This document shows positions 1-49,224 of a DNA stretch of 64,000 nucleotides, in pieces. Numbering within the stretch: the stretch's first letter is position 1; the number at the start of each line of letters is the position of its first letter. Made by a program: the position numbers and the translations under genes. Source of the stretch: a virus; IMG/VR virus record IMGVR_UViG_3300021365_002389, positions 1 through 64,000 of that record; one strand, written 5' to 3'. The notes beneath the pieces are model-generated. The model ran no database searches. It worked only from the letters and a program-made list of their open reading frames with translations, and had not been told where the DNA came from.

Positions 1-512
1 CATCGGAAGTTCTTTGCTCCCATAATCTGGTGCTCTGGGTATTTCTCTTTGATTTTCTCGTAGAGGCTCCACATATCTGGGTTTTGTACTTTGCCGAAGT
101 GAATAACTGAACCAGGCTCGGGTGCGAAGCGGCTGATAAACTCTTCTAGCAATTTCGTAGCAACACCTTGTCCCTTGTGTTCCCGGCGGGTCTTCATGTA
201 ATCAATATAAAGAAAGGGCTTACCGTCGGAGGTTTCGCCTTGGCTGTGATAATCCAAGAACCCAATAATATCATCGCCTGACCCTGGGGCTTCCAAGTGT
301 CTCTTCTTAGTCATCCGTCCCGTGCGGGGATTACGATAACTATACTGGTCGGCAAAACCGAAGTCCCCACGGTAAGGTGGTTCTATGCTGGGGTCTCGCA
401 GGGCTAGTCTCTGAATGTTGCTGGCACGGTCATAAGACAAAGGCGATTTCTCTTCCACAAACTCTTGTGATTCTTTTAGAAATTGTCGCCACTCTGTTAG
501 TAGTTTTTTCAT
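1..512 (-). CDS. GNAT-family N-acetyltransferase with N-terminal capsid-targeting-like tag (3' end outside window)
   Basis: Reading from an ATG at 512, 170 codons are visible and the C-terminus lies beyond base 1. The acetyl-CoA-binding motif A of GNAT enzymes is visible as RREHKGQGVATKLLEEF, preceded by the strand LYIDYM, so the protein probably moves an acetyl group from acetyl-CoA to an amine; the substrate is unknown. The first residues, MKKLLTEWRQFLKES, closely match the starts of the next two genes and end in an L-K-E site like those cut by the T4 prohead protease. The start overlaps the stop of the upstream gene as ATGA, which supports it. It is probably packaged in the head and delivered to the host (inference). 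Confidence 0.8.
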   Translation of the reverse strand, partial: MKKLLTEWRQFLKESQEFVEEKSPLSYDRASNIQRLALRDPSIEPPYRGDFGFADQYSYRNPRTGRMTKKRHLEAPGSGDDIIGFLDYHSQGETSDGKPFLYIDYMKTRREHKGQGVATKLLEEFISRFAPEPGSVIHFGKVQNPDMWSLYEKIKEKYPEHQIMGAKNFR

Positions 513-1339
513 ATGCCCACAGCCTCTGGGTATTTTGTTTTAGCAAACGCAATATATTTATCACGCAGTTCGTTGTAAAAGAAGTCTTTCAGTTCTTCTT
601 CTGTGTATTTTACTCTATATTCGCCGGGAGTTTCTTTCTCGTCTTCGGCGTTTATCTTGTCTCGGCGGCGGCGGAACATATCAAAGAATTGCTTGATACG
701 CATATCCAACGCTTCTGTGTAGGGCACCTTGTAATACTTTGCTCTTTTATAGACTTCTTTGGTGTAGGTGTCTGTTTCGGAGTCCGAAGCATAATATCCA
801 CGAATACCATCTATTTTATTGTAGTCCCATCTGGTCTGCGGGATTTTCAGGGGTTCTCTGGGCGGGAAAGCGGTGGCTAGCACATCATCAGTTTGTCCGC
901 CGTGCTGGATTTCGTGGATGGTGACAGCTTTGAGTTCACCAAGATATTCATTAAGGTCTTGCTCGTTGAAGCCAATGTCAAAATAACTATTGATTTTTAT
1001 GTAGTCGTCTTCCTTACCCTCACCAGGGACGCTCATATGCATCCCGCCTATCATAAACTTATCGCCTGTTTCTTCCGCTAGTTTTTTATCAATATGGAAA
1101 GTAAACTCAGCCATATACATCATATCTTCAAGTTCTTTTGGGAGAGTTTTACCTGCTTGATATTTCTTGCCGATTACGAGAATCAAATCCTTGCGTGAGT
1201 TTTGAACACCCTCACTGGGAATAACCTCGTCAATAATATATTTGACGTGAGGTATTACCTTGCGGGTCAGTTCTGTTGTGGCTGCTTCGTACCTTCCCTC
1301 TTGGAGAAAGCCTCGCCACTGTTCCATGATCAATTTCAT
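509..1339 (-). CDS. HExxH zinc metallopeptidase-like protein with capsid-targeting-like tag
   Basis: This 276-aa protein has a zincin signature HEIQH at residues 142-146 inside the helix-like VTIHEIQHGG. A possible third zinc ligand is Glu188 in YASDSETD, which would make it gluzincin-like. I chose the ATG at 1339 over an upstream in-frame start at 1489 because it directly follows the stop of the previous gene (1341) and gives the start MKLIMEQWRGFLQEG, matching neighbouring N-termini. That tag ends in L-Q-E, a T4 gp21-type cleavage site. The C-terminal third is Arg/Lys/Glu-rich. It is probably a head-packaged protease acting in the capsid or in the newly infected cell; the target is unknown. 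The motif is clear; activity is inferred. Confidence 0.72.
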   Translation of the reverse strand: MKLIMEQWRGFLQEGRYEAATTELTRKVIPHVKYIIDEVIPSEGVQNSRKDLILVIGKKYQAGKTLPKELEDMMYMAEFTFHIDKKLAEETGDKFMIGGMHMSVPGEGKEDDYIKINSYFDIGFNEQDLNEYLGELKAVTIHEIQHGGQTDDVLATAFPPREPLKIPQTRWDYNKIDGIRGYYASDSETDTYTKEVYKRAKYYKVPYTEALDMRIKQFFDMFRRRRDKINAEDEKETPGEYRVKYTEEELKDFFYNELRDKYIAFAKTKYPEAVGI

Positions 1340-1340
1340 T

Positions 1341-1805
1341 TTATTTTTCCGAAAATGGACTTCGAGATTGCCATTCGTGAGATACACTATCTTCATCAAT
1401 TGGTCCACCTTTGGCCCAAGTGTAACAAGCACGGGCTGAATGGCATTTGAAGTGGTGCATCCAACAATAGCCAAGTTCTCCGTCTTCATCAGAGGTTACA
1501 CCGGGCATACACTCTTTCATTCGAGGGGAAATATCGAAAGCCGTGCAATTTGCGCACAAAGATTTCTTTGCTGCATCAACAGAGGTATCCCAATACTTTG
1601 CTATCTTTTCCCAATAATCACCAGGCTCGTCAACATTCAAAGGTCCATATTTAATATGGTCTGCATGGATGGAAGCATCACGGTTTTTGGTATTTAGTTT
1701 TAAATCTTGAGTTGCTGGTGGGCAAACATAATCCTTGACTGCTCCAATAACAACTTTCATTTCTTCTTGGAGAAAATTTCTCCACTCTGTCATTAGTTTC
1801 TTCAT
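1341..1805 (-). CDS. Cys/His-rich protein with capsid-targeting-like tag, function unknown
   Basis: The 154-aa protein starts at the ATG at 1805, which overlaps the TAA of the upstream gene (TAATG); a longer TTG start at 1811 is less likely. The N-terminus MKKLMTEWRNFLQEE is nearly identical to those of the two genes downstream and ends in an L-Q-E site. The second half carries clustered cysteines and histidines: CANC, then KEC, then YCWMHHFKCHSARAC. Such spacing could hold zinc or an iron-sulfur cluster, but I cannot tell which. No enzyme motif is visible. The shared tag and tight overlap place it in the same putative head-packaged set. Confidence 0.7.
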   Translation of the reverse strand: MKKLMTEWRNFLQEEMKVVIGAVKDYVCPPATQDLKLNTKNRDASIHADHIKYGPLNVDEPGDYWEKIAKYWDTSVDAAKKSLCANCTAFDISPRMKECMPGVTSDEDGELGYCWMHHFKCHSARACYTWAKGGPIDEDSVSHEWQSRSPFSEK

Positions 1806-3079
1806 TACCAAGCCTTACAGGACCAGTAGCGTGCTTTCGTTTTGGGTCCTGGGTTTTTACAGTTATGACGGGCACGAAAAGACTTTCGTCTTTCTGGGTT
1901 TGACTTTTTAATTTTCATGTTAGGATCCCCAAAGTTTACCTTCTTCACGTTTCCAGTCTTAGGGTCTTTAACATAAACTTTAGATTTCTTTACGTCGCCA
2001 CGCATAGGTTTATTAAGAGTAACCTTGCGTCCTTGGTACTCTGCCTCTTCAATAACATCATCCCAAAATTCGATATCTTCTGCAAGTGTGCCATCATCAT
2101 ACATAGCATCCGCAATGTGATAGTATTGTTCTTGTTGTTTAACCTTGAGGGATTCCTTAACAATTCTTGTAATACTTTCTCTCGTAATTTTTATTTTACT
2201 GATATTGATGTCCTTACGATTTGCTGCCTCTTCCTCTTCCTCTTCCTCTTCTTCTTCAGCGTCCTGGTCAGCGTAGGGATAAAAAACATCGACATTACCA
2301 GTTTTCATTGCTTTTGCAACCTTCTCAGGTTCACCAGCGTCTGGTTCAAGAACCGGCATCTTATCTCTGGACTCTGCCCACTCTGGAGGTGGTTTTTGAA
2401 CATTTTTAAGTTGTGTGACAAAATGCGCTTTGGCTTGCTCTACTCCACCGTAAGCCTCATCCAGGACTCTCTTAACGGTTTCTGCATCTACAAAATCGCC
2501 AACACCCTCTTGAACAAATTTATTGATCATATTATTGACGTCATCAATAGTAGCAGTCATGATATTATGTGGTGATGGCTTCTTTCTCTCGCCAGGGTGA
2601 AAAGCATCACCCATCAGTGCCAGAACCTGAACAAGGTCTTCACCAGGCATGTCAATCTGAAAACCTCCTAGTTCAACCTCTGGTCCGACTGCAAAAATGG
2701 AGGCAGCCCAACGATGATGACCGTCCATAATATAACCATCATTAGAAATAACTGCACCAAGGTCTCCGCCGGGTCCGTCTTTAAAGGGGCCAGGTAGCTT
2801 ACCTATCATAGAAATAGCCATACCAAGAGCTTGACCTAATTTAATTTCCTTCTGGGAGGGTTTTAAATCATCGGCGCTAAAATCAGATCTTTTGTCATAA
2901 GACACCTGATCGTCGTTGGGTGGACCTTTGTCTAATTCTGGTTTTCCAGCTTGTGCTACAAATTTTGCGTATTTTCCTGACTTGTCTGGTGTGGGGTATG
3001 GAAACTTTGAAGCATCAAAATCTTGCTCCTTAATAACTTTCCTAACCGCCTCAATTAAAATTGATTTTTTAATTTTCAT
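1805..3079 (-). CDS. ParB/sulfiredoxin-fold domain protein fused to a second tagged module (putative packaged polyprotein)
   Basis: The 424-aa protein appears to be two tagged units joined. Unit one begins MKIKKSILIEAVRKVIKEQ (I-K-E at 16-18) and holds a ParB/Srx-like motif, GYIMDGHHRW, at residues 115-124; family members with this motif include DNA-binding and nuclease proteins. A run of ten Glu (about 275-284) links to a second tag-like helix, IKITRESITRIVKES, at 296-310. Unit two ends in a basic Cys-containing tail, RKSFRARHNCKNPGP through RYWSCKAW (398-424). Its last base overlaps the next gene's ATG. If a prohead protease cuts at I-K-E and V-K-E, two separate proteins would result (inference). 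Confidence 0.7.
   Translation of the reverse strand: MKIKKSILIEAVRKVIKEQDFDASKFPYPTPDKSGKYAKFVAQAGKPELDKGPPNDDQVSYDKRSDFSADDLKPSQKEIKLGQALGMAISMIGKLPGPFKDGPGGDLGAVISNDGYIMDGHHRWAASIFAVGPEVELGGFQIDMPGEDLVQVLALMGDAFHPGERKKPSPHNIMTATIDDVNNMINKFVQEGVGDFVDAETVKRVLDEAYGGVEQAKAHFVTQLKNVQKPPPEWAESRDKMPVLEPDAGEPEKVAKAMKTGNVDVFYPYADQDAEEEEEEEEEEAANRKDINISKIKITRESITRIVKESLKVKQQEQYYHIADAMYDDGTLAEDIEFWDDVIEEAEYQGRKVTLNKPMRGDVKKSKVYVKDPKTGNVKKVNFGDPNMKIKKSNPERRKSFRARHNCKNPGPKTKARYWSCKAW
2227..2257 (-). repeat. Glu-coding CTC/CTT microsatellite
   Basis: On the plus strand this is a run of CCTCTT and CTT units. On the coding strand it is GAA/GAG codons giving ten consecutive Glu at residues 275-284 of the ParB-like fusion protein. 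Unit changes of three would keep frame, so it is better read as an acidic linker than a phase switch. Confidence 0.75.
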
Positions 3080-3876
3080 CCTTTTTTACCTGCCTTTGAT
3101 TTTTTGCCGTAGCTGCCTCGCTTGCCACACGCTGAGGGCGTGGGTCGGCACTTTGGATATTTAGCTCGTTTTTCGCCGCTTTCACGACCGCAGGCACTAC
3201 ACTTCTTTCTGCCCGTCTTTTTATCTTTGCGGCAAGTATTACAATCTACCCACCCGCTCTTGCTTCCCTTTTCACCTTTGCGACCAAACCACTTGCGCAA
3301 TCCTTCGCTGTCAGCTTCTTCGATAGCTTCTTCTTTTTTTACAGAGTTAATATATTTTCTGTATACAGCAGCGGCTGATGCTTTGCCAGCAGCTTTTGCA
3401 CGTTGCTCCATGGCGACAGCAGCCTGAACTTTATGGGCGTGTGACCTGCTAGAGCTTTTAATTTTAGACACGCTTTTTTTAGCGTCTGCTTCTGTAGCAA
3501 ACTTTAATCCGTGTATGGTGCCCTTGGGGTCTTCATCGGTATAGAGGTCACTGTGTTTTTTTGACTTAGACTTCTGTCCTTTTTTTCTTGGAATGCGAGG
3601 GTTAGTTTTTTTTTCAGCCAACTCTGCTATAGCTTCACGGATCATGTCACGAAGCGGGTCTTGTTCTAGACCCTCCTTTTTGCTTTTGTTACCCCAGTTG
3701 GCAGCACCAACTTTACGACACTTAACCAAGGCACCAGAAGCATATGCAGAAGGCCACACATCATAACGGGCTTTCACCTTATGATAACAGGCATCTTTTT
3801 TACCGCCACTCTTTTTCTTCTTCTCAAGAAGGGCTTCTTCAACCATTCCCCGAAGTTGTGATAGTGTAATCTTCAT
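3076..3876 (-). CDS. Basic three-module protein with N-terminal and internal capsid-targeting-like tags
   Basis: This 266-aa Lys/Arg-rich protein contains three modules separated by tag-like helices. The N-terminus MKITLSQLRGMVEEALLEK ends in L-L-E (16-18). Module one (28-64) has ACYHKVKARYDVWPSAYAS and GALVKCRKVGAANWGN. A second tag-like helix, LRDMIREAIAELAEK (75-89), contains I-A-E, the exact residues cut in the T4 internal protein III signal. Module two (119-177) has HAHKVQAAVAMEQRA and VYRKYIN. Module three (192-266) is Gly/Lys-rich with CNTC and CSAC pairs and YPKCRPTPSAC, possibly metal binding. The strong positive charge suits packaging next to DNA. ATGA overlap couples it to the gene downstream. 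Function is unknown. Confidence 0.7.
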   Translation of the reverse strand: MKITLSQLRGMVEEALLEKKKKSGGKKDACYHKVKARYDVWPSAYASGALVKCRKVGAANWGNKSKKEGLEQDPLRDMIREAIAELAEKKTNPRIPRKKGQKSKSKKHSDLYTDEDPKGTIHGLKFATEADAKKSVSKIKSSSRSHAHKVQAAVAMEQRAKAAGKASAAAVYRKYINSVKKEEAIEEADSEGLRKWFGRKGEKGSKSGWVDCNTCRKDKKTGRKKCSACGRESGEKRAKYPKCRPTPSACGKRGSYGKKSKAGKKG

Positions 3877-3885
3877 TCTGATTCC

Positions 3886-4833
3886 TCATGCCATTAAAGC
3901 AATCTTGAATAAATAGGCATCAGAATCAATAAAAGGCGCATCTTCTTTGCGCTGTTCATAAACTTCTTGTGGCATCTCGCCAATATCTTTATACCCAGAG
4001 GTGTCCATAAACCGAACCTCTACATCATAAGCCAGTAAAGCTTTCACAAGTCTCATGGCTTTTTTGTGTGCGTCAGCATCCAGCCCCAACAGGACAGGAG
4101 TGTCGTTTTTTACAATCTTCCTGAAAAGTCGGCTGTCTTCTCGCAGGGTTGAGCCGAGCAGCGGGATACTGTTCTCGCCAGCAACGATTGCATCAAAAAC
4201 ACCCTCAACCAAAGTGACCTCTCGTTCCCAGTCAATCAGCAGTTCATTAAATATGATGTCTTTGTTGCCGGGTCCGTTCATATACGGAGGCCAGATGTTC
4301 GGGTCATATGTGCGGGAAGTAAAAAAGTTACAATAACCTTCTTCGTCAAATGATGGGAGAATCAGTCTGTTTTTGTATTCGCCGGAAGCGCAGTAGCCTA
4401 TCTTCCAAAACAGAATGTCTTTCCCTACAACGGCACGCTTGCGTAAATAGTTTAGGGGGACTCTTGCGGAAGCAGGGTGTGTTCGTCCCGTAAGTGTTTG
4501 AAACTCATTTGGAAGGTCGATTCGTTGGCTAGTTTCTTCCTCCTTGGCAAACAGGTTGTCTAGGTCGCCCAACTCAATATCGGCGTCAAAGTCCTTCCAT
4601 CTATGGATGTGACTTATATCACCCCAACGCCTGACTAGGCGTCGTAAATTTTTAGTGCGCCAGTCACAAGTCCAACACTTAGCAACATTCTTGTCAAAGT
4701 TGACTGATAGTTTCTTTTTGTGATGACCGCAACATCGGGAAGTATAAAGATATTCCTTGCCCTGGCGGGATGGCCTGCCAAGGACTTCATCAAGGATTCT
4801 TTTCTTCTTCGCCGAGTTGGGATCGTTGAGCAA
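3886..4833 (-). CDS. DNA primase (T4 gp61-like; zinc finger plus TOPRIM)
   Basis: The 315-aa protein, close to T4 gp61 in length, should synthesise RNA primers for lagging-strand DNA synthesis with a replicative helicase. An N-terminal CHC2-type zinc finger is visible as RCCGHH followed 17 residues later by CWTC. The TOPRIM catalytic core follows: EGVFDA (acidic motif), GLDADA (DxD) and YKDIGEM near the C-terminus. The start codon appears to be TTG at 4833, directly after the TAA of the upstream gene, with AGGG seven bases upstream; no suitable ATG exists before the zinc finger. It sits with the HAD gene behind a sigma70-type promoter, which suits early expression. Confidence 0.85.
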   Translation of the reverse strand: MLNDPNSAKKKRILDEVLGRPSRQGKEYLYTSRCCGHHKKKLSVNFDKNVAKCWTCDWRTKNLRRLVRRWGDISHIHRWKDFDADIELGDLDNLFAKEEETSQRIDLPNEFQTLTGRTHPASARVPLNYLRKRAVVGKDILFWKIGYCASGEYKNRLILPSFDEEGYCNFFTSRTYDPNIWPPYMNGPGNKDIIFNELLIDWEREVTLVEGVFDAIVAGENSIPLLGSTLREDSRLFRKIVKNDTPVLLGLDADAHKKAMRLVKALLAYDVEVRFMDTSGYKDIGEMPQEVYEQRKEDAPFIDSDAYLFKIALMA

Positions 4834-5439
4834 TTAGTACCCTAGTTCTTTGAGTTGCCTAATCGTATTATCCACATCATCTGGATTATGTTTAATAGCG
4901 ATACCACCACCTTCTCGGAACTCGTTGACATACTTATCACGGTCGTCAATCAGAAGTCCTTGTTTTCCTTTCCAGACTCCATAAGGCTTCTTGCTATCCG
5001 AAAGATTGACTTTTTCAACTGGGACACCCAGTTCTCGCTCAACCCACATCCGCTTGCCGACCTTTGATCCCTCAGCCATGGGAGCCGACAAAATCTCAAG
5101 ACCTGGAATATCTTTAATATAATCCCAAAGTTCTTTGCCACCACGTTCCCAGCCGAGGTTGGCCCAAAGGTCAACGTCGTTCTCTACGAGTCGATACATG
5201 AAGTCTCTCGTACGGTAATTTCTCTTTAGGCTTCCTTCTTGATCGGAGCGGGCAATGTGCCACTTATCAATCTCAACATCCCAACCGCCAATCTCTTTGG
5301 CTGCCGAACGGGCAAGTTTGTGATCAGGATGATCTGGCTGATCTTTTAGTTCCCGAAGACGTTGGTTCATAAATCTTAGAACGCCATCCTCAAAATTGAC
5401 GAGGACACCATCCATATCGCTAAAGACTTGGTACTTCAT
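4834..5439 (-). CDS. HAD-superfamily 5'(3')-deoxyribonucleotidase-like hydrolase
   Basis: The 201-aa protein begins MKYQVFSDMDGVLVNF, the HAD motif I (DxDGVL) typical of pyrimidine 5'-nucleotidases of the NT5C type. ILSAPM supplies motif II, and LLIDDRDKYVNEF supplies the acidic motif IV. It probably dephosphorylates deoxynucleoside monophosphates and so adjusts nucleotide pools, although other HAD phosphatases cannot be excluded. I chose the ATG at 5439 over an in-frame start at 5460 because a strong Shine-Dalgarno GGAGGT lies six bases upstream of it. The gene is followed immediately by primase and preceded by a promoter. Confidence 0.8.
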   Translation of the reverse strand: MKYQVFSDMDGVLVNFEDGVLRFMNQRLRELKDQPDHPDHKLARSAAKEIGGWDVEIDKWHIARSDQEGSLKRNYRTRDFMYRLVENDVDLWANLGWERGGKELWDYIKDIPGLEILSAPMAEGSKVGKRMWVERELGVPVEKVNLSDSKKPYGVWKGKQGLLIDDRDKYVNEFREGGGIAIKHNPDDVDNTIRQLKELGY

Positions 5440-5445
5440 AGGAGC

Positions 5446-5451
5446 ACCTCC
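5446..5451 (-). promoter_or_regulatory. Strong Shine-Dalgarno (GGAGGT) deciding the HAD gene start
   Basis: On the coding strand AAGGGAGGTGCTCCTATG places GGAGGT six bases before the ATG at 5439. It excludes the longer reading frame that would begin at 5460. Confidence 0.8.
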
Positions 5452-5461
5452 CTTCAACACT

Positions 5462-5489
5462 ATAATACCATATGTTTTTATTAGGTCAA
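5462..5489 (-). promoter_or_regulatory. Sigma70-type promoter for the nucleotidase/primase operon
   Basis: On the minus strand TTGACC (5489-5484) and TATTAT (5467-5462) are separated by 16 bases, each 5 of 6 matches to the bacterial consensus. It lies in a 57-base gap between the stop at 5497 and the ATG at 5439. Transcription would start near 5455 and read the nucleotidase, primase and possibly the tagged genes below. Its host-type form suggests recognition by unmodified host RNA polymerase. Confidence 0.65.
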
Positions 5490-5496
5490 GTAATTT

Positions 5497-6102
5497 TTAC
5501 TTGTTATCTTTTGCATCAAGATAGGCTGCTACAGCCATCTCTTGCTTTTTCTTTTTTGACTTGCCTTTAAATTGTGGGGCGTCAGAATCTCGAAAGTCCT
5601 TAACATAATCACCAGCGGTGGCGTCCTTGTCAAGTTTCTCCCCCATCACATGATCATATTCAAGATAGTGCTTGACGGCTCCGATATAGTCTGCTACCTT
5701 TGTCATTTTGCTCTGAATCCAGGCTGGAAACTCATCGCCGTCTTGAATATTGTCAAAGATTTCGGCAGCGTATTGGGCTGTTTTAAACATTTGGCGCTTT
5801 GCCATGTTCCCCTCGTGATCGTCATGATGTTTAACACCCATATCTATTGACTGCATTTTATCATAGCCCATTTCGTTTATGTCTCTTCTATTGCCTGCAC
5901 CAGTCGCAGCAGATGCAGCCTTAAATTGTTGCTGCGCAGCGTTCATGACGCTATCGGTGTCCATATCTTCGGCTGCTAATCTAGAAAGTATTCCGACTAT
6001 AGTACCAGCAGCCTCTTCCTCTTCGGGTCTCATTTCCAACAAGAGAGATCGTTGTATCTCTTCTTTTATCATGAATCTAAGGATATCGGTGTTTAATTCC
6101 AT
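5497..6102 (-). CDS. Tagged small structural or packaged protein, function unknown
   Basis: The 201-aa protein begins MELNTDILRFMIKEEIQ, an amphipathic helix like those of the other tagged genes, with candidate prohead-protease sites I-K-E (12-14) and L-L-E (21-23). An acidic stretch and an Ala/Gln-rich helix follow. The centre has GDEFPAWIQSKMTKVADYIG (121-140), an aromatic-helical module without a known catalytic motif, and the end is Lys-rich. It is separated from the other tagged genes by primase and nucleotidase but shares their tag logic, so it is probably another head-packaged protein (inference). Confidence 0.65.
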   Translation of the reverse strand: MELNTDILRFMIKEEIQRSLLLEMRPEEEEAAGTIVGILSRLAAEDMDTDSVMNAAQQQFKAASAATGAGNRRDINEMGYDKMQSIDMGVKHHDDHEGNMAKRQMFKTAQYAAEIFDNIQDGDEFPAWIQSKMTKVADYIGAVKHYLEYDHVMGEKLDKDATAGDYVKDFRDSDAPQFKGKSKKKKQEMAVAAYLDAKDNK

Positions 6103-6117
6103 GTCTTAAATAGTTCG

Positions 6118-6696
6118 CTAATCAACTAAAACAATTTTTTCCGTTAGGAATCCTTTATTGTCTTTATTTCTTAATAAGAATTCCCCAGCACGAGCTATGA
6201 CAACGGCGTCCGCCTTATCATCAGTGCCTTTCTTATAGTTTTTGTTACCACGAGCCATCTCGTATTTAAATGATGTTTTCTCTTTTTCGATGACTGCCTC
6301 AATAACCATCTTTTTTCTTTGTGGACCTTTAGTGCCCCGTGGAAAAGAAAGGCCATAAAGAGTCCGAGCAGTATTAACATTAATATAAGTCGGAGAAAAA
6401 CCAAAACATTCAAAACATATCCAAGATGCTATGCCATTAAACTTTGCTAACTTTATTATCGTGTCTGCTCTAGATTTTCCAGGTAAGAATTTTTTCAACG
6501 CTGTTTCTACAAAAACATTTTCTACATCAAATTCTGATCTTAAAGTATAAAGATTGGCACCAACAAGTTCCGCTTTGTCAAACAAAGTATCGCACTTCGA
6601 TATATCCCAGCCCTCACAATAAACAAGAGTCCTAGAGTCTGGGTCTATAATTGCAACTCCAACCATGGTGGTTGAAATATCTAATCCTAAAATCAT
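6118..6696 (-). CDS. RuvC-like Holliday junction endonuclease
   Basis: The 192-aa protein has the RNase H-fold layout of RuvC nucleases: LGLDIST at the N-terminus (first acidic residue), VFVETAL (Glu) near residue 60, and DDKADAVVIA near the C-terminus (paired Asp). It should resolve branched DNA during phage recombination and packaging, a role played in T4 by the unrelated gp49. Length fits the RuvC family (about 170-190 aa). It stands between the structural block and the nucleotidase/primase genes, with about 15-base gaps on each side. A related RuvC-fold nuclease with a different role is the main alternative. Confidence 0.8.
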   Translation of the reverse strand: MILGLDISTTMVGVAIIDPDSRTLVYCEGWDISKCDTLFDKAELVGANLYTLRSEFDVENVFVETALKKFLPGKSRADTIIKLAKFNGIASWICFECFGFSPTYINVNTARTLYGLSFPRGTKGPQRKKMVIEAVIEKEKTSFKYEMARGNKNYKKGTDDKADAVVIARAGEFLLRNKDNKGFLTEKIVLVD

Positions 6697-14032: not shown

Positions 14033-17000
14033 CTAGTCTCCAGTCTCACCGTTCAACAGAAAATACCTGTTGTAAATAGGCAAATCAAAAACATCTGATT
14101 TGTCAACAAACGAATTGGCGCTAAATTTATCTACAAAATTATCTGTTGGGGATAAATCCAAATCACCTATGGGTCGAAGCCTACACAAAAACTTCTTATC
14201 TATGTTACTTTCATAAAAAGCTCGTGTAAACTTTCTCCAAACCGGTCTCTTTGCTTTGTAGTAATAACTGTCATCTTCATTTTTTTGAATGTAGTATTTA
14301 GACACTGAGTTTGAATTTACTGAAGAGAACCCTGCCAAATACTCTACACAAGCAAGCTGTTTATAGTTCATCCAGAAAGCTAACATTTTAGCGTACGCTT
14401 TCATGGGGTCACCGGTTCTCTCATAGGGTGGGTACTCGCCCTCGTTAAAGACGGCGGATATATAATTGTTACCTGAAATTTCAACTTTATCTTTTAATTT
14501 GGGACGAACAGCGTCAAACCCATTTCCAAAAGATAATCCTTCATTCATTGTGGCCACAACAATCATGGATTTTAATTGGTTAGGTAAAGATGATGCGACG
14601 CTGCCCTCTAAAATATCTTGAATGTTTTGAGAACTCACGCCTAAAATGCTAGCTAAATTGCTCAAAGAATTAAACTCAATTGAGTTATAGTCTAAAGAGT
14701 TTGTCTCATTCATACCACTATTTACAAACAGTTCACCTAGAATATTAAACATTATTTTTGTTGGCATCTTTTTTTGTTGCGCAGAAACATTATTTCTTTC
14801 ATCATCTTTCTTGAGGTTTTCAAAATCACTATCTATTAGGCTTTTTTCTAGAGCAGATATTGTTTCTTTAGCTGAGGTAACTCCGCCGGATGCAGTGCTG
14901 GCGTCATCTCCTCCTCCGAGTACTGTTGTTCCCACATCTGTGCTTGACTCTTTTTTGGCACCTCTATCAATGACTGTTAAAACATCGTCCCTGATGTTAG
15001 CCGGGTCAAGTTCCGCAAATTGTAAATCAATACTAGGTACCACCTCACAAGATAACATGGTAAAAAGATCTTGTGTTTGTTTCCCTAGCGATGTCTCAAA
15101 GGTATCATTTACAGAATTGTTTTGCAAAAACTGGAACGGTGTTTGTTTTTTGTTAAGCTTTAAAAGATCAACGAACAGTTCAGCATATCGATTAAAATCA
15201 AAGTCAAGGGCATTTTCTTCATCAATCTTGTAAGATGTTTGATCAACTGGTTGTTTACCGTACACACTAATTTTTAACGGTGAATAATAACTAATAGAAG
15301 AATCTGCAAATCCCTCAGTTAAAGCGTTAGGATTGTTGGATCCGGCAATATTAAAGTATTTTGAAAATTCTGTCGAAGCCCTTGATAAGTGTGCTTGTTT
15401 TGATATTCTAGACAAACCCTGCAATGAATTTATAGAGTTTGGCACGTTTGAGGTCAGATAAGAATACCCAGATCCATAATGCTTACCGTAATCACTAGTT
15501 TCTTTAAAGTAATGTTCTGTTCTTAACAAAATATTTTTACTTGAACGTGACGTTTCAATTTTTGATTCTTTAACACTACCATCGACACCCGTATTATTCG
15601 GGTAGTAAGATCTCAACAAAGAGTTCAGTTCGTTAGAAAAAGTCAAAATAAGATCAGCAACATTTTTTATACCATCTGTATCGCCGGCTAAAATTCTTGT
15701 TTCCATATTTGTTCTAGCAATGTTCAGTGCATCAGATCTAATAACGCCAAAATTATCAAGTATTGATACATAAAATTCAATAGCGCCTGTCACAACTTCT
15801 TCGGCGTTAGTTTCGCCCACAGCAATACTAGAAAGCGAGGTTTCAAGCATTTGAGTTTTTTGACTATAGATGCCTGCACCAGGAGGTGAATAAACAATAG
15901 AATCATACACATTGCGAACAGCTTTTTCAAGGGACATCATAGCTGTTTGCACCCTAGTGAGATATAGTAGTGAGGAGTCATGAACTGTCACATTTACGCC
16001 GTACTGACAATCTATATCTGCTTGTGTTTTTTTCTCGGTTCTGTTAAAATACACACCCTCGTATATTTTAATGTAGTCTGTAATACCCTCACTTAAAAAT
16101 ATGTTCCGAACCTCCATTGCCTCGCCTATGTTTTTTTCAAAACCTAACCTGTCATCATAATACGTTTTGCTCGTTTGCACTGACAAATCATTTATTGCTA
16201 CAAATGAATTTTTTTCAACTCTTCTTTTTTTCATTGTTTTAGAAATAACTTTTGATATTTCTCCAAACTCTATAAAATCACCGCCACGAAGTAATTCAGA
16301 GCTTGTGCCATTACTAATGTACAAAAACGGAAACGGGCTATTTTCTGACAAATAGGAGGCCAAATCAAAAGCATAAGAATATCTAGTATTTTCCTCTTGA
16401 TCCTTACATATCCATAAATCTGAGAAATGGTTTTGGTTCTTTATTGTTTGAGATATTGTTCTTTCTCCGCCAATGGCACCGACCATTGTTCGGTAAAAAG
16501 TATCTTGCAATTTGTCTCTTAGGTTGTCGGGTGTTATGTTTTGATCTTGTCGAATATCAGAAAACATTCTGGCATCTGGGTTTTCCGTTGTTGCACTAAT
16601 AGTTGGTCCAGCTACAATATCACCAACTTGTGGTATGTATTTGGTCCTAGTGCCACTAAAAGTTTTTATATCTACAAAACCCATTCCGTTTCGTAATGCT
16701 GATGTGTCTATAGGGGGGTTAGCGGATATGTTAGAATCATATCTCTCCACGAAAGATTGGTAGTCCGAATAGCAATAACAATAAACAGAGAATGCTTGGT
16801 CTAAAAAAGTCTCAATGCCCAAGCTTGCTAAATCGATCTCAAACCCTTTAGAGGATACTATCTCTGCGGTATAATTATCTTGGTTTGTCAGTCTGCCGAC
16901 TTGCCAGGGTAGAGAGTTTAACTTCTTTTTAATAACCTCATTGTTGTCATCGTGAAGCAAGAAGTTTTTCAGCGGGACGTCATGTATCATAACTCCATCC

Positions 17001-17557
17001 ATTACACTGTCATCCACCTGACTATAGTTTAAAATAGGGTTTGGTCCATTTTTTATGGTTCTGGTGACATTTATAGTGTCATAAGGCCCGCCTGAACCCA
17101 TAATAGAATCAAACAATTCAAGAGAGAAAAGTTCATCGTCTTCATTATTAGATACAAAAGAATTATCAACAGCACCCATTAATGACTCATATAATATAGA
17201 GGCTTTGTCGTTGCCTCTAAAGCTCATTTTACCTGCCTGGTATTCGTTAAATCTCTGAGAGAGGAAATCTAGTATTTTTGTTGCCTGAGGGTTAAAAGAT
17301 ATTATGGTCCTAACTCTTAAATCGGGCAAGATATCTTCATTCAAATACCAGTTATTTTCTGGACTGCTCAAGTTTGAAGATATATTGTAAAACTCTAAGT
17401 TTGATTTTAAAACTGGACTACTTGAATTTTTGTTGAAAAGTACCGAGGATTTAAATATGGCAGTTGGAGAATCAGCAGACACATATCCTGTAACACCCGC
17501 AAAAGATGTTGTTGGTGGATTAATAAATCCTGGCGCTGGTAATCTATTATCAACCAT
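14033..17557 (-). CDS. Large virion structural protein (1174 aa), baseplate/tail
   Basis: This 1174-aa protein begins MVDNRLPAPGFINPPTTSF and contains no domain I recognise. It is rich in Asn, Ser and Asp with frequent aromatic residues, typical of tail proteins, and has a flexible Gly/Ser/Thr linker (GGGDDASTASGG) near residue 880. Its stop is one base from the ATG of the 1222-aa gene, so the two are translationally linked and likely made in similar amounts. It may build the baseplate together with that protein, but no direct similarity to a T4 gene product is visible. Confidence 0.65.
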   Translation of the reverse strand: MVDNRLPAPGFINPPTTSFAGVTGYVSADSPTAIFKSSVLFNKNSSSPVLKSNLEFYNISSNLSSPENNWYLNEDILPDLRVRTIISFNPQATKILDFLSQRFNEYQAGKMSFRGNDKASILYESLMGAVDNSFVSNNEDDELFSLELFDSIMGSGGPYDTINVTRTIKNGPNPILNYSQVDDSVMDGVMIHDVPLKNFLLHDDNNEVIKKKLNSLPWQVGRLTNQDNYTAEIVSSKGFEIDLASLGIETFLDQAFSVYCYCYSDYQSFVERYDSNISANPPIDTSALRNGMGFVDIKTFSGTRTKYIPQVGDIVAGPTISATTENPDARMFSDIRQDQNITPDNLRDKLQDTFYRTMVGAIGGERTISQTIKNQNHFSDLWICKDQEENTRYSYAFDLASYLSENSPFPFLYISNGTSSELLRGGDFIEFGEISKVISKTMKKRRVEKNSFVAINDLSVQTSKTYYDDRLGFEKNIGEAMEVRNIFLSEGITDYIKIYEGVYFNRTEKKTQADIDCQYGVNVTVHDSSLLYLTRVQTAMMSLEKAVRNVYDSIVYSPPGAGIYSQKTQMLETSLSSIAVGETNAEEVVTGAIEFYVSILDNFGVIRSDALNIARTNMETRILAGDTDGIKNVADLILTFSNELNSLLRSYYPNNTGVDGSVKESKIETSRSSKNILLRTEHYFKETSDYGKHYGSGYSYLTSNVPNSINSLQGLSRISKQAHLSRASTEFSKYFNIAGSNNPNALTEGFADSSISYYSPLKISVYGKQPVDQTSYKIDEENALDFDFNRYAELFVDLLKLNKKQTPFQFLQNNSVNDTFETSLGKQTQDLFTMLSCEVVPSIDLQFAELDPANIRDDVLTVIDRGAKKESSTDVGTTVLGGGDDASTASGGVTSAKETISALEKSLIDSDFENLKKDDERNNVSAQQKKMPTKIMFNILGELFVNSGMNETNSLDYNSIEFNSLSNLASILGVSSQNIQDILEGSVASSLPNQLKSMIVVATMNEGLSFGNGFDAVRPKLKDKVEISGNNYISAVFNEGEYPPYERTGDPMKAYAKMLAFWMNYKQLACVEYLAGFSSVNSNSVSKYYIQKNEDDSYYYKAKRPVWRKFTRAFYESNIDKKFLCRLRPIGDLDLSPTDNFVDKFSANSFVDKSDVFDLPIYNRYFLLNGETGD

Positions 17558-18598: not shown

Positions 18599-21500
18599 TT
18601 AATAGCCTCCACCGCCAGAGAATCCGCCGCCGCCGCCGCCAGAAAATCCGCCGCCACCGCCGCCAGAAAATCCGCCGCCGCTATTATTATTAAAACCAGA
18701 TTGTAAAGCTCGTGTGTTAACAGTTAGACTTCTACCCAATCCTTGCGTAAATTGGGGGCGTGCGGGTGGTCTCTCGATCGCTGTTGCCGTAGTAAAATTA
18801 GTCATTTGTTGGGCTGTGTTTTGTACAGCCACTGCTGTAGCTTGAGTCGTAGCTGCCGCAGCTAATGCGTCCACATCCACAGTTACTGCTGCGGGTGGTG
18901 CAGAAGAAGGGGTCCCAACATTTTTCTGCCTACCTATCATGTTTGGATCAAGTTTTAAAGACTTTGCTATTTTTGAGGCAGCCTTCCTTCTAATTGATTC
19001 TTGTGCCTCTTCGCCAACTTCTGCGTAAGGCAAGTCTGGTCTAAATCCAACTTTAGCAGTCAACTTAGTCATTTCTATTAGCGAAAAATAATCGTAAGGC
19101 CAGTTAAAAGTGTTTCTGCCCTCGCCCAAATTATCAGAATGATAAAGTTGTTTTGTAAACTCATCTTTTCTCTTAAGCAGTTCTTCCTTCTGAGCATCAG
19201 GAAGACCATCTGCTAGATAACCATATATTGAAGCAAAGGATGTTTTATCATCGCCGCCATTTATTTCACTAAGAATCATTGAAGTATAATTTGTTTTGCC
19301 ACGTTTTTTGACTTTGAAAACTAACCATCTTATATCAGGAGTAAACCCATTCCTATCAGGGAATGCAGTTGTATCCAGTAAATCAACTCGTGGGAATCCA
19401 TCTCTTTCTATACCTAAGTCAATTTGTTTTTGTAACACTTCGTCAAAAACAGGTCTTGAACCTTTTTCAGTTGATTTACCAGGCATATAGTGATCGATTG
19501 AAGAAACAGATAATTGCGCTTTCCCACCAACATCGGGCATGATACCTTGCCATATATCGGACAGGTCTTGCCTTGACAAAGACACTTTATGTTCCAGCAA
19601 GTAGACAACTGGAACTTTTGCTAGGTCTGTATCGGTGAGAACCTCATCCAACTCATCGCCACCAAAAGGGTTTATAAAATTAGGAACGCTAGGATAATCT
19701 GGCGGTAGCAAACCTCGCAACGCTTTTCTTAAAGCTGGCGGGAAAGAATAGTTGGAAAAGACTCTTCTAAATTCTTTAACTTTGGGTCCTAGCTTGTCGG
19801 CGTCAGCCTGAAGGTTTACAAATGACACCTTCTGAGAATTTGTATCATAGTAATACGGAATAGCTAAAATTGCCTCCGATAGTATTTTTTCCCCATCCTC
19901 TGCAAGTTCACCAATTCGTTTTGCTTTATCCGGCAAAAACTGCCCAGGTGGCATAATATCTTCGTCCTTAAAGCCAACTAATTTAGCCAAAGAATCTATT
20001 TCTCGTTTAGAGCGTTTGACAAATGATGGAAGTTTTAATACTTTTAATAGTTTATAGGCATTCGAAGACGAACGTTCTCGGTTCGGATCATCATTTGTCA
20101 TTCTGATTTCAACCGCTTGACTATCAACATCAGAAATATACATATACAAACCCTGACCGTCATCTGGCATAACACCATATTGGTGCCACATTCCCTTAGT
20201 GGCAGAACTTGTTGAGAAAGCACCCATTGCAACGGACGATGAGAAATTATACCTACCTGTATGTGCTGGGCCGCTCAAACTCGATGTCTGGTCATACCTG
20301 GGAAAATCTAGGACCGGGCATTCCCACTTAGGCATAATAACCCAGCGGTTTTTATTTGCCGGCGAAAACTCTTTTCCAAAGTCTGAAGGATAACTATTAT
20401 CGATCACGATCGTTTCGTCTAAATCCATTCTATTTAACCATGCTCGATTGAAGCCATAATCAACGATTTCAGTGGACCCTGATGATTCTACTATCGCTCC
20501 GTTGGGCAGTGCAAAAGATCCACTACTTACCTCGTAATGAAAACCATCTTCGTTAACATATTCAACGTACAACTCAGTTCCATTAAGAATTTCATCCAAT
20601 GTTACATTTTTTGATTCGTCCGGAAAGTAAGTAAACCTGGCAACACTTGGTCCGTAGTAGTATGGTGGTGTGAATGGTGCAAACTCACCTCTATGTCGTG
20701 GCCAGTCTCTACCAGGAGGAACAGTTCCATAACCGTCAGAGGGGTTAGACGATCCTGTTGTTGGACGAGTATTGCCCGATGTGCCGTCCCAGTGCGATGA
20801 ACCTGTCGCAGTTGGAATACCAAAGGCAGCAGGGTTGTTGTATAGGTTAAAGCTATCAGTCTTCCTTAGGACAACCTCCATCAAGTATGCTTTTTTCTTA
20901 TCAACAAAAACAGTTCTTGGTTCTGTATCCGAAACAGCAGCGTTGCCTTTAGGGGAAGACGGGTCATTCTTAGCTGGCAATTCAGCCACTATCTTTGTCA
21001 TAAAGCCACCCTCTTTCTTTTTCTTCAAAAAGAATTCAGGCGTAGAGGCAAGGAAATTAGACATTGCTAATCTGTAAAGATTATCATCTGAAGCAGCATC
21101 GGGCCCGATCGATGCCGAGACAAAATGTCGTATGTAAGTATTAATATCATGTGTCAATAGAGCCTCTTTGCCCTCACCAATATGCTGTAAAGGATTTAAT
21201 AATCCCTCAAAGGGTACTGAATCAGCCCAAAACAATTCGGATACCACATCAAGACTAAAGTTGTAATTACTTTCTCCCCCTTGGCGGCGTCTTCTTCTGC
21301 CGCCGGGGAATTGCTCAAGAGTAGCGATATTAGTGCCGCTCAAACAGCCTCGAAGGGGTTCCATATAAGTGTCCATAAAGCAGGTAGTGCCGCCAAGGAC
21401 AATGGCAGATGCTGTCAAGTAATTGATGTCCTGCAAAATTGGTTGTCCACTAACGTTGTCTGCACCTAATTTTCTTCTGACAGGATGACTAACTGCAACA

Positions 21501-24500
21501 CCACCCTTAATGGAGTTGTATAAAATTCCAGGTGCAAAGAAAGGACGAGTCAGTGTTCGCCATCTTCCTGGGTGGCTTGCAGATACTCCACCATAAATTG
21601 CATGTGGACCGTAAGACTGAGAGAATAATTGAGCTATTTGTACTGTTCTTAAAACTGGATAAAACCCATCATATGGCAAGAGTTTCAACACAGCATCAGA
21701 TTTTAAAGATAATTGGCGGGGATATTTATTAATTTCTAAATCATCGCTCCCTGCCTGCATAAATGGATTCAAATATTCCATGACATCGGATGTAGAATAC
21801 CTCTCCAAGAAATCACTATCAGTAGAATCAAACACAGTATCGGATGCGCCAGTTAACTCAATTGATGAAGAAATAAATGAGGTAACAGATCCTTGTACCT
21901 TGTATTCCTCTAAGTTTTCGCTAATTCTAAACTCTGGTACGATGGCATAATCTTTAGCTATCACTCTTATTTCTTTTTTCCATGTATCATAGTCGTCATA
22001 GAAAGGATGACCCTCGGGAGCAAGTTGTCCTTTGTTTATTCCATCAACAAATCTTCTTCTTGTACCTGCGGTCCACGGAGGCAGAGCAAGAGATGGACAG
22101 CCAGGATATGATGCGGTAACCCTAAGATCTCTAGTGTTGGCACTCCCGTATGTTCCGGATATAAGACAAGGAGCAACATAAACATATTGGGCAGAATTTA
22201 CACTTGAGGTAGTCCACACATCACTCGTCGTAGACGACGCTGTATGGAGAGGTGCAGCGTTGAGAAAAGCTCTACCGTAATGAACCATCATCAATTCACC
22301 AGCCGGCAAAGTGCTAGCCATATTAGTTGCAAACTTTTGATCAGTAGCGCCACCAGTTAAATCTGTAAGCATGTAATCTGAGTACATGAAAGAGTCTAGT
22401 GGCCATACTGAACCGGAACCTAATATACTGCCGTCGCTCGTCTCCTCGTAGTCCGCTACATTTTTAGAATTTGGAACCTGCATGGTTTTTATTAAAAGAG
22501 TTCCCTGAGAAGTTGTGAAATTATCTTTCATCCTTGGGAACTGTCTGTTGTTCCTCTCCATTATGATATTGTTAAAAGCGGTGCCGACCCCTTCTGTGGC
22601 ACCGCCCATATCCGCCACAACCGCTGAAATATCTTGTGATCCCGTAACTTGATCATCTCTCCAAAAAGTTCTATTTGTAAAAGATAATCTAGCTCTAGTT
22701 CCCGACAGATAAGTGTATACCTCTTTTGGAAAAATAGTTTCCTCGTACACAAATGACTTTATATCACCCAAGCCAGAAATAGATTCGTCAACCCCGTCCC
22801 TTCTGTAGTCTAAGAATACCTCATATGGACGTTTTATTTTACCCAAAGAATAATTTCTAGACCCTTGTATTTCCTGATTAAGATCTCTATTTGCAAATCC
22901 TTGCAATACATTACCGTAAGAGTATCTAACATCTACTGTAACGGGGTCACCATTAATATTCTCTGGTGTTCCGGATGGAGTTTCAATTGTATGAATTAAA
23001 GGCTTATATCTTGATGTTACAGGCGGTTCTTTAAACTTTTTATAATGCCTAAAGTCTATACTTCTTTCAACAAGTTGTGTTGGATTATATTGAAGTGCTG
23101 CGTTCTCAAAGTATCCCCTATCAATATCAGTGCGAGTTGTTGTAGAAAACACCTCAAACATTTTTTCCGGGTCTCTTATGCCTTTTGGCTCAAGGAGCGG
23201 TGATTTTTTAGGCACTAACTCATATAAATTTTGCCTTCTGTGAAAAGACCCTAGTGTGGTTTGACCAACTCTTGTTTGGGTCCAGGGTGCTGGTGGCTGT
23301 ATTCTGGAATAAAAAGGATCGTAATTATAAATCACAGAGAGAGGCCTCTGTGGATTAATTTTCGATACTGCATCATATCTCTTACTATTATTGAGAGAGT
23401 ATGCCCCAAGCATATAACCGTTCAACTCAACAGAGCCAGTGTTGGCATAATCAGTTTTGATCACAATTATTGATTCTGGGAATCTAGAACCTGATAAGGT
23501 CCACTCGATCTCTTGATCTTTTAAGCCAGCCCCGGCACGGTTTATGTCTCTTGTAAAATTAGCGCCTGTTAAAAAGGTAAACCACTTTATTCTGTCGGCA
23601 GCAGGTATTGGTCTCTGTACAAAATCGTTGTCTCTGACGGAGGCTGTCTGAAATGTTCTGTATTCACCACCATCAGGATTATAAGGTGCGTCAGAAGATG
23701 ATCCAACAGGATAATTTTCAAGAATTTCAAACCTAGAAGTTTGGTTCCTTTGAGTTTTGTGTATGGCTGCAAAAGAACCTGAACCCTCATTCAATTGTGT
23801 CAAAGCAACAGGACCCTGATTATTGTCCATTGGTGATACGGCATCTGTTATTTTTGGATCAGGGAGTATACCTACAACATCTGAATTTTTAAATCCGCCC
23901 CACCCAGTAAAGGTCATGGACTGAGAATTAAAAATATTCCTTATGAGAAGGTTTCTAAATGGCAATGCATTATTAGGAGAAAACTGATCTGTAGCAATAT
24001 CTCTAAATTGCTGTTTTGAATCCTCTTTGCTACCGGGTGCGGCAAACCTGCTCGCTATTATGCTCTTGTTTGTTCTTCTTGTTTCTTTTTGTCGTGGCGC
24101 TGTATAATCAGCAGAGCCAGTAAGTCCAGCTAAACGTCGAGCAGGAGTTGTTAAAAATGCAGTTGGATTGCTTGCTGTATAAAAGCGATTGTTAAACACA
24201 AAATCCATGTTTGCATTTTCTCGTCCAAAGCCATGTATTACTTCATAGTTTTTATCAAAGTTGCCTAGTATTTGTATACCCCTGCTTGAACTGCCTGCTG
24301 CTGTTAAGCTGCCTGTTGCAGATCTTACATTAGCAATATTGACTGGTGACTTTGCTAGGTTGTTGCGGGTATAATGACCCTTTGGTGTAGTACCTATTTT
24401 ATGTGTTGCTAAATTTATGCCGAACAAGCTACCACTGGCGAAAACAGAAGTAGTTGCTTTGGGTGATCCTCCAGCAAACGCCGTGCCAGCGAAAGATGTG

Positions 24501-48354: not shown

Positions 48355-49224
48355 TTAAGGTAATTCAGAAATTGGAAATAAATCAAACCAAGTTTGCTTG
48401 TTTAAGTTCATAATTTTTATATCTTTATTGTTAGCACTGTCAAGCAAAATTGTCAAGTCAGATATGAGATTTTTGTGATTGTCTTCCCAAAGGGTAAAAT
48501 GATCTTGGTGAAGTGCGATATCTTTTCTTGCATATCCCAACCTATAACTTAAATCAACACCAGACAAATATATTGGACTACATCCCATAAGAATAGCAAA
48601 AGCGATCGCATGTAGCGCAACTGTGTCCCCAGTGCTATAATGTCTATCAAGTCCTGTTTGTTTTTGTAGCTCTTCTTGTATTGTTAGTTGTGTCCTATCA
48701 ATCATTTTACAACACCTGCCATGCAGGTCAAAACCTGCCCAGCCATCAGGATAACCGATACGAGGTGGATGCCACATGGCACTATTGTTGCCATACTCTT
48801 TATAATCAAAGTTTTTATTTTTCACTTGATAGTCTTTAAAAGACTTAAGTATTTTAACACAATTGTGGCCTTTGAAATGTCTTTGATCATATGGTAAGTA
48901 ATCACATTGCAAGATAGATTGAATATATTCATCACTTGAAAAATCACCGTCAGTCGAATAAAGAACTGGTGACTTGTACTTATTCATTATTTCGTGCATT
49001 ACAGGGAAAGAAAACTGCGAATTAGAAATCACCCAATAATCAGGCGCAATTTTAAAATAATCATACCAATTGTTTACAGAAAATCTTATGATCTCATTAT
49101 TATTCTGCAACTCCTCTATTCGCTCTTTATCCTCATTAAGACTAGGACCGTGACCACAAATAACAGCAGCAGTCCCTTTGTGTTTATCGATAATATCTGC
49201 TAGCTTTAATTTATTTGCTTTCAT
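48355..49224 (-). CDS. Maf/DUF115-like nonulosonate transferase
   Basis: The 289-aa protein has AAVICGHGPSLNED near its N-terminus (the GxGPSL motif of the DUF115/MptE-like Rossmann group), YWVISNS in the middle, and STGDTVALHAIAFAILMGC then IYLSGVDLSY near the C-terminus. Maf proteins in this family transfer pseudaminic or legionaminic acid onto flagellin Ser/Thr. Its place next to NeuA and NeuB strongly suggests a nonulosonate transferase, here probably acting on a virion or host protein. A simpler polysaccharide transferase cannot be ruled out. Its start overlaps the Nudix gene by 14 bases. Confidence 0.75.
   Translation of the reverse strand: MKANKLKLADIIDKHKGTAAVICGHGPSLNEDKERIEELQNNNEIIRFSVNNWYDYFKIAPDYWVISNSQFSFPVMHEIMNKYKSPVLYSTDGDFSSDEYIQSILQCDYLPYDQRHFKGHNCVKILKSFKDYQVKNKNFDYKEYGNNSAMWHPPRIGYPDGWAGFDLHGRCCKMIDRTQLTIQEELQKQTGLDRHYSTGDTVALHAIAFAILMGCSPIYLSGVDLSYRLGYARKDIALHQDHFTLWEDNHKNLISDLTILLDSANNKDIKIMNLNKQTWFDLFPISELP

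Follow-up and report, generated by a model that had tools for sequence, protein, structure and literature searches.

The internal proteins (IPs) of the T-even phages share among themselves only a short N-terminal propeptide, the capsid-targeting sequence (CTS) (PMC3012670). One of them, IPI of T4, is an injected protein that counters host defence (PMC3012670, PMC9391042), and a review proposes that T4-like phages in general use the IP principle (PMC3012670, PMC9026906). Here we describe a family of comparable N-terminal peptides, hereafter tags, found on six genes at positions 1-6102 of a 64,000-nucleotide window (positions 1 to 64,000 of IMG/VR record IMGVR_UViG_3300021365_002389) and on many further genes of the same virus and its relatives. 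It is very probable that these tags are T4-type CTSs, carried by head-packaged and injected proteins of host takeover or counter-defence.

As in T-even IPI, IPII and IPIII, a short N-terminal propeptide running to [LI]-x-E occurs together with an S77 prohead protease, and diverse cargo follows a conserved tag. One tag sub-type (type 2, [WYF]xxF[LI]xE) closely matches T4 MKTYQEFIAE. Unlike in the T-even IPs, the tag mostly comprises 14 rather than 10 residues, about 25 cargoes per genome stand against three IPs and Alt, and tandem internal tags and enzymatic cargo domains are present, in uncultured marine phages. Tagged proteins resembling ADP-ribosyltransferases (ARTs; ART-PolyVal, PF18760) recall T4 Alt, a head-packaged and injected ART, although Alt belongs to another ART clade and is also cut C-terminally (PMC9026906). 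Polyvalent proteins (PMC5512222) likewise combine ART, metallopeptidase, ParB-like and 2H domains with a predicted early delivery; however, each is one giant multidomain polypeptide in a MuF/portal context, whereas the proteins described here are mostly small, single-domain and separately tagged, with CTS and S77, and only one of the tagged proteins in the window is a fusion (1805-3079). An N-terminal stretch of P1 DarB similarly suffices to bring a reporter into the capsid, and its cargo counters restriction (PMC9024508); its signal lies within the first 30 residues, and going by its description it is set apart, no tag family being seen in common. In SPN3US and phiKZ the prohead protease also cuts after Glu in ejected head proteins (PMC5694885), but at an A-x-E motif, behind mostly long propeptides (>100 residues) and with no short common tag. 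The phrase 'undescribed system' used in the first-pass annotation of the window is too strong, since the principle is established for the T-even IPs (PMC3012670, PMC9026906). The mechanism is already known from these proteins; the novelty lies in its scale, in a tag fixed at 14 residues and in polyproteins with tandem tags, and no paper describing such a large tandem-tag version in marine phages was found in the open-access literature.

All six window genes were confirmed as minus-strand open reading frames (ORFs) with an amphipathic N-terminal peptide at the places first annotated. Five of the six N-termini exactly fit a register with hydrophobic residues at positions 8, 11 and 12 and Glu at position 14 (E14); the exception is 1805-3079, which has a longer tag ending at E18. 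The (L/I)-X-E site was originally placed near residues 12-23: the site is present, the range was loose, and the Glu is mainly E14. Two sub-types align with each other without gaps, type 1 being MKITKSQLRxIIKE/E and type 2 MKKLLTEWRKFLKE/x (the slash marks the predicted cut). The first gene (3-512) encodes a GNAT acetyltransferase domain (PF00583, E=1.8e-6, over the cut-off) behind the type-2 tag MKKLLTEWRQFLKE (471-512, predicted cut before S) and is truncated by the window edge. It ends normally (170 aa, 183266-183778) on a longer contig of the same virus, G001 (IMGVR_UViG_3300020595_003017, 190,528 bases), which was found with protein 1805-3079, 100% identical in both, and which contains the window's record in reverse orientation at 59,039-183,778. 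The second gene (509-1339, type-2 tag MKLIMEQWRGFLQE at 1298-1339, predicted cut before G) encodes a putative zinc metallopeptidase with an invariant HEIQH; both the tag and HEIQHGGQ are invariant or conserved in six of six homologues (76-91% identity), and the protein has neither a Pfam match nor a PDB sequence match. It is followed by a Cys-rich protein of 154 aa (1341-1805) with no function assigned, tagged with type-2 MKKLMTEWRNFLQE (1764-1805, predicted cut before E), whose homologue in locus L236 (79% identity) carries MKKILTEWRKFLSE. The starts of these two genes are internal to slightly longer mechanical ORFs, that of 509-1339 being backed by its homologues.

The fourth gene (1805-3079) consists of two modules with one tag per half. 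Its N-terminal tag MKIKKSILIEAVRKVIKE (3026-3079, predicted cut before Q) precedes a half whose ParB/Srx-like domain (DGHHRW) is assigned by motif alone, while a second, type-1 tag, KITRESITRIVKE (residues 297-309, 2153-2191, cut before S), previously overlooked, precedes a C-terminal domain that we term RHNC. The N-half exists as a stand-alone gene in L134 (tag MKIKKSVLTEIVRKVIKE) and L135 (tag MKITKKFITEVVKRVVQE), while in L138, L223 and L226 the C-half forms a gene by itself that starts with a tag, the tag of the L138 gene aligning with the internal tag of the fusion. The fifth gene (3076-3876) encodes a Lys-rich basic protein with a KKDACYHKVKARYDVWPSAYASG module and the type-1 tag MKITLSQLRGMVEEALLE (3823-3876), predicted to be cut before K (V-E-E14 is also possible); its homologues are all tagged, namely those in L223 and L226-L228 (82-87%) and immuto26A_187 of the cultured Flavobacterium phage immuto. 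The sixth (5497-6102) encodes a 201-aa protein with no function assigned and the type-1 tag MELNTDILRFMIKE (6061-6102, predicted cut before E), with homologues of 55% identity in L226 (tag MILTKEIISSLIREE) and L228 (tag MLLTQDIIRRLIKEQ). The attached domains hence differ as first described for the GNAT, HEIQH, Cys-rich and Lys-rich proteins, and by motif for the ParB-like one.

The register was assessed beyond these genes. A strict tag rule is passed by 28 of 233 ORF rows of G001, with one gene counted twice; internal-Met peptides pass it in 2.1% of cases, and shuffles give 7.6. For 27/232 the binomial p is about 8e-13, and 28/233 is an undercount, because the script-chosen starts missed 509-1339 and 1341-1805. 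The pattern MKITxxxLRxIIKEE is encoded by at least 120 stretches in viral contigs, in which the same codons in reversed order gave no match. Two control patterns without matches were replaced by a looser random (unrelated) pattern that supplied the control loci. With seed-matching ORFs removed and starts chosen without any tag rule, the 8/11/12/E14 combination was present in 131 of 1125 N-termini in tag loci versus 6 of the 1161 taken from random viral loci (p about 2e-34), and other offsets of the same combination occurred 0-17 times each in the tag loci. Over 143 tagged proteins with unrelated bodies, conservation of K2 and of E14 reaches at least 90%, in a set chosen by regular expression, which favours conservation at these two positions. 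A tblastn search of a phage collection with the tag peptide gave no match, the query being too short. Alignment of the tags over related phages, a check put forward in the first-pass annotation, shows one fixed E14 register, with tags kept in homologues.

Many tags of one genome are almost identical as protein, which could also arise if the shared 5' ends were copied DNA, such as translation-initiation or promoter cassettes spread by recombination, with no functional peptide. At the codon level, however, type-1 tags within one locus differ by 0.63 at synonymous and 0.17 at amino-acid level, and type-2 tags by 0.76 and 0.27, with the amino-acid figure somewhat lowered by the regular-expression choice of tags. 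No such contrast is seen in the codons 3' of the tag, in unrelated cargo, and some tags lie within proteins, well away from start codons. This explanation was rejected on the near-saturation of synonymous differences with few amino-acid changes, and we assign it a negligible probability. The data support selection acting on the tag as a peptide.

Among the genes identified in the record from which the window is taken (124,740 bases), terminase, portal, capsid protein and protease are all absent. No match to the S77 profile was found in this record, an absence that carries no evidence because the record is without the whole head module. The first-pass annotation had proposed looking for a gp21-type prohead protease in the rest of the genome, and an S77 protease of this type is indeed present on G001 at 14940-15536 (PF03420, E=1.2e-31 at 15033-15455). 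It lies within a head module that comprises terminase (9722), portal (11297), the protease, a tagged gene (MKKSELKNIIKECVKEVIFEEG, 16814-17200), a scaffold-like gene (17965) and a gp23-type capsid protein from 18959 (PF07068, E=7.6e-71). The tagged gene thus falls in the protease-scaffold interval; in immuto, a tagged gene is likewise found inside the head module, between portal and protease.

Across a wider sample, S77 was detected in 31 of 37 tag-bearing IMG/VR contigs of at least 28 kb compared to 3 of 24 random contigs (Fisher p=3e-8; the random count refers to profile matches over the cut-off in contigs of at least 28 kb). Including two named phages, 33 of 39 tag-carrying records are positive, among them all those >100 kb. 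The same type of site recurs in the capsid protein: the column of T4 gp23 E65 (FLTE/A), the known cut site, is an invariant Glu within [LIV]-x-E in 30 of 30 capsid proteins, mostly from tag-bearing contigs, and mostly reads LLRE/S or LLKE/A. The T4 record gives MKTYQEFIAE/A as the start of IPII and IPIII and MAKINELLRE/S as that of gp24, both of the same type as the tags. According to the mutational studies collected in PMC9026906, targeting of IPIII depends on residues 4 and 7 and its processing on residues 8 and 10; a change at position 10 is reported to prevent cutting while leaving packaging intact. Shifted by four, residues 4, 7, 8 and 10 become 8, 11, 12 and 14 of the tag. The assignment as T4-like capsid-targeting N-termini is therefore supported by length, cut-site motif, the key positions of IPIII and the linkage to S77.

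The RHNC domain provides a natural comparison. In the S77-positive C48C1 it is tagged (MKKFKQYIDE/G...LTE/AEYQGKK), while Pelagibacter phage Kolga (MAKYQGRTVKL...) and Roseobacter phage CRP-901 (MATYKGKSVSL...) have the bare domain; a search for an S77 protease found none in either of these two. The second [LIV]-x-E/AE[YF]QG junction of the tagged RHNC proteins coincides with the start point of the bare proteins, and in HTVC008M, where the N-terminal tag is weak, this junction is nevertheless kept (PLEE/AEFQG). Amphipathic helices rich in K and E are common, and an AlphaFold model places residues 2-15 in a helix, albeit at low confidence; hence the peptide could be a docking helix for a target other than the head (host membrane, replisome or cell pole), with [LI]xE a by-product of its composition. 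Loss of the tag from S77-negative phages with the same cargo domain, the S77 association, the sharp E14 register and the likeness to the capsid-protein cut site make such a role very unlikely.

Further tagged genes are numerous, both on the window's record (87969, 88264, 89415, 90521, 91344, 119338 and 120820) and on G001 (557, 48432 and 49127). Past the window edge, the island continues on G001 with MKKLLTEWRKYLKEE and MKQLLTEWRKFVLTEG, an RseP-like protease, a run of type-1 genes (MRITKSQLIQLIKEE, MKLTASDLRQIIQE, MKITKSQLQQIIKEE, MKITKAQLRKIIKEE and MKITKSQLRKIIKEE) and a gp47-like gene, beyond which lies the head module. By hand count about 26 genes of this virus are tagged, about 16 of them in strict register. 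The set of six first annotated is thus correct as far as it goes, with about 20 more genes carrying the tag.

A comparison of sister phages reveals a fixed island frame (RuvC, 5'-nucleotidase, primase, HEIQH protein, RseP-like protease and gp47) in which the tagged slots are exchangeable. The slot after the HEIQH gene is occupied by GNAT in the window's virus, by an ART-PolyVal-like gene in L224/L225 and by an ART-like gene, recognised by its YHGSTKDF motif only, in L226. Tags are swapped as well: the tag in front of the RHNC domain is of type 2 in L223 and of type 1 in L226, and in the fusion protein of the window it is the internal one of type 1. When the 307 tagged proteins with a length of 110 aa or more were clustered, 180 cargo clusters resulted, so that the earlier notion of tags added to unrelated cargo is well supported by both cluster number and locus turnover. 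Recognisable cargo in the wider sample includes ART-PolyVal, AAA_33, pentapeptide repeats, 2H phosphodiesterase, FliG_C and NT5C; two of the 143 tagged proteins have ART-PolyVal (PF18760, best 6.3e-15), with the match in the close relative L072 below the cut-off. This virus also encodes a tagged Zeta-toxin/AAA_33 kinase and a YHYT...STAR...EAEDR family protein (89415-90524) that is ART-like by motif. AlphaFold models of the latter family and of 509-1339 reached a mean pLDDT of 59.6 and 47.5, respectively; a fold search with these models returned nothing and a PDB sequence search nothing meaningful, so that for this virus both ART and zincin are assigned from motifs alone. A tagged protein at L219:8432-9130 (G001 48432-49130) matches DUF3293 (E=2.9e-9) with a weaker S-AdoMet lyase similarity (E=5e-4), and is a possible packaged SAM-degrading anti-restriction enzyme. 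The type-1 tagged L116:297-797 has a weak 2H phosphodiesterase match just below the cut-off (PF08302, 6.7e-5) and may be a packaged counter-signalling enzyme.

The density of internal tags in tagged proteins is 24 times that in the untagged proteins of these loci, and none was found in about 205,000 control residues. Of the four 'untagged' hits, two are fusion proteins of this virus whose N-terminal tags were missed by the regular expression. A three-module tandem-tag protein is encoded at L072:3522-4706.

The position of a tagged gene within the head module, the DNA-binding appearance of Lys-rich 3076-3876 and the similar propeptides of T4 core proteins raise the possibility that the tagged proteins, once targeted to the prohead, are not injected effectors but serve there as structural or core components (scaffold aids or DNA-condensing internal proteins). 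Such a function fits poorly with 180 clusters among 307 proteins and with the replacement of cargo at a single locus from one sister phage to the next, and the enzyme domains (GNAT, ART-PolyVal, AAA_33/Zeta, DUF3293/SAM lyase, 2H, zincin) fit host-directed functions. We consider it improbable, though the most credible of the alternatives.

Under the preferred reading of packaged and injected effectors, the amphipathic tag helix would bind the scaffold core during prohead assembly, thereby enclosing the tagged protein. At prohead maturation, the phage's own S77 protease would cut at [hydrophobic]-x-E, on the C-terminal side of the Glu (usually E14), freeing the mature cargo within the head and splitting internal-tag proteins into separate modules. 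The cargo would then exit along with the DNA and, in the first minutes, act on the host ahead of any phage gene expression. The cargoes (GNAT, zincin, ART-like, ParB-like, SAM-lyase-like, kinases and many of no assigned function) would serve host takeover or counter-defence. Several observations weigh against this model. We found no virion proteomics for any tagged phage, immuto included, in the open literature, and packaging, cleavage and injection, like the activity of each cargo, are therefore what we infer. Most cargo is without a recognisable domain and PADLOC gave no match on 143 tagged proteins, such that the effector role is assigned mostly by analogy; NCBIfam likewise returned nothing meaningful on ten proteins of this virus. 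Furthermore, the T4-type late promoter TATAAATA is absent upstream of the cluster, a scan for it giving no useful signal, some HTVC008M and Microcystis Mel-JY01 proteins have weak tags only, and at least one register match in this virus, that of a glycosyltransferase at 60097-60945, is probably due to chance.

The frame genes among and beside the six are untagged, all on the minus strand: a DNA primase (3886-4833, phrog_47 E=5e-29) and a HAD/5'-nucleotidase-like gene (4834-5460, weak PF00702), both syntenic in L223-L228, and at the upstream island border a RuvC-like resolvase (6118-6696, phrog_159 E=2e-8), syntenic in L224-L228. The RseP-like site-2 metalloprotease (MLTFLGIIVLVIFVHELGHY, L221:15403-16206, G001 186403-187206) is conserved in position among sister phages and separates the type-2 from the type-1 tag run. 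At each end of G001 (L217:1161-1806 and L221:18646-19528) a tagged gene (..MVKQQIEERCQKGYKTHEKRKTKK), nearly identical in the two copies, precedes the gp47 start, reflecting either a tandem duplication or an assembly join. Adjoining the tagged genes at 87969-91559 of the record is a PrkA kinase, SpoVR and YeaH-type DUF444 group (L002:1484-5931, record 83484-87931; E 1e-104 to 5e-140). Elsewhere in the window, a surface-sugar cluster of about 20 genes (42982-63483) contains three NDP-sugar epimerases, NeuB-like, CMP-sugar synthetase-like and aminotransferase genes and several glycosyltransferases, and a single ORF of 3543 aa with a weak Laminin_G_3 match (18599-29230) lies between baseplate and fibre-like genes.

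In immuto (host LMO8), the nearest cultured relative, immuto26A_176-179, 187-188, 191, 194-195 and 199 are predicted to be packaged, and predicted tag cuts include MKKSELVKLIKE/E, MISIYNILKE/V and MENTFDLKKFLVE/N. The MISIYNILKE tag belongs to immuto26A_178 (L005:43366-43806), in which it is followed by GEGDYGAVFLVGNRV, resembling a protein-kinase P-loop, and the protein is a possible packaged kinase in a cultured phage. Four immuto proteins (L006:7631-8931, L007:1803-2318 and L005:43806-44354 among the loci) share the N-terminus M(E)NFDLKKFLVENKLTxNS, possibly a third tag type with an L-V-E or L-T-E cut.

Taken as a whole, a widespread group of uncultured and mostly marine T4-like phages probably uses a near-universal 14-residue head tag as a socket for 20-30 rapidly exchanging packaged effectors per phage, in part as tandem-tag polyproteins cut in the head, which could make the packaged and injected proteome readable from the genome. 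If the tags act as CTSs, the proteins carried into the cell can be listed from sequence alone, and a role as first-minute effector or counter-defence protein would be predicted for marine phage genes that are now anonymous and number in the hundreds (180 cargo clusters here). The target of IPIII was not yet known in PMC9391042. Compared to the T-even system with its few cargoes, a family of about 25 with tag swapping and natural tag-less controls would make both the packaging code and the cargo functions testable, and a short modular tag for protein delivery would follow.

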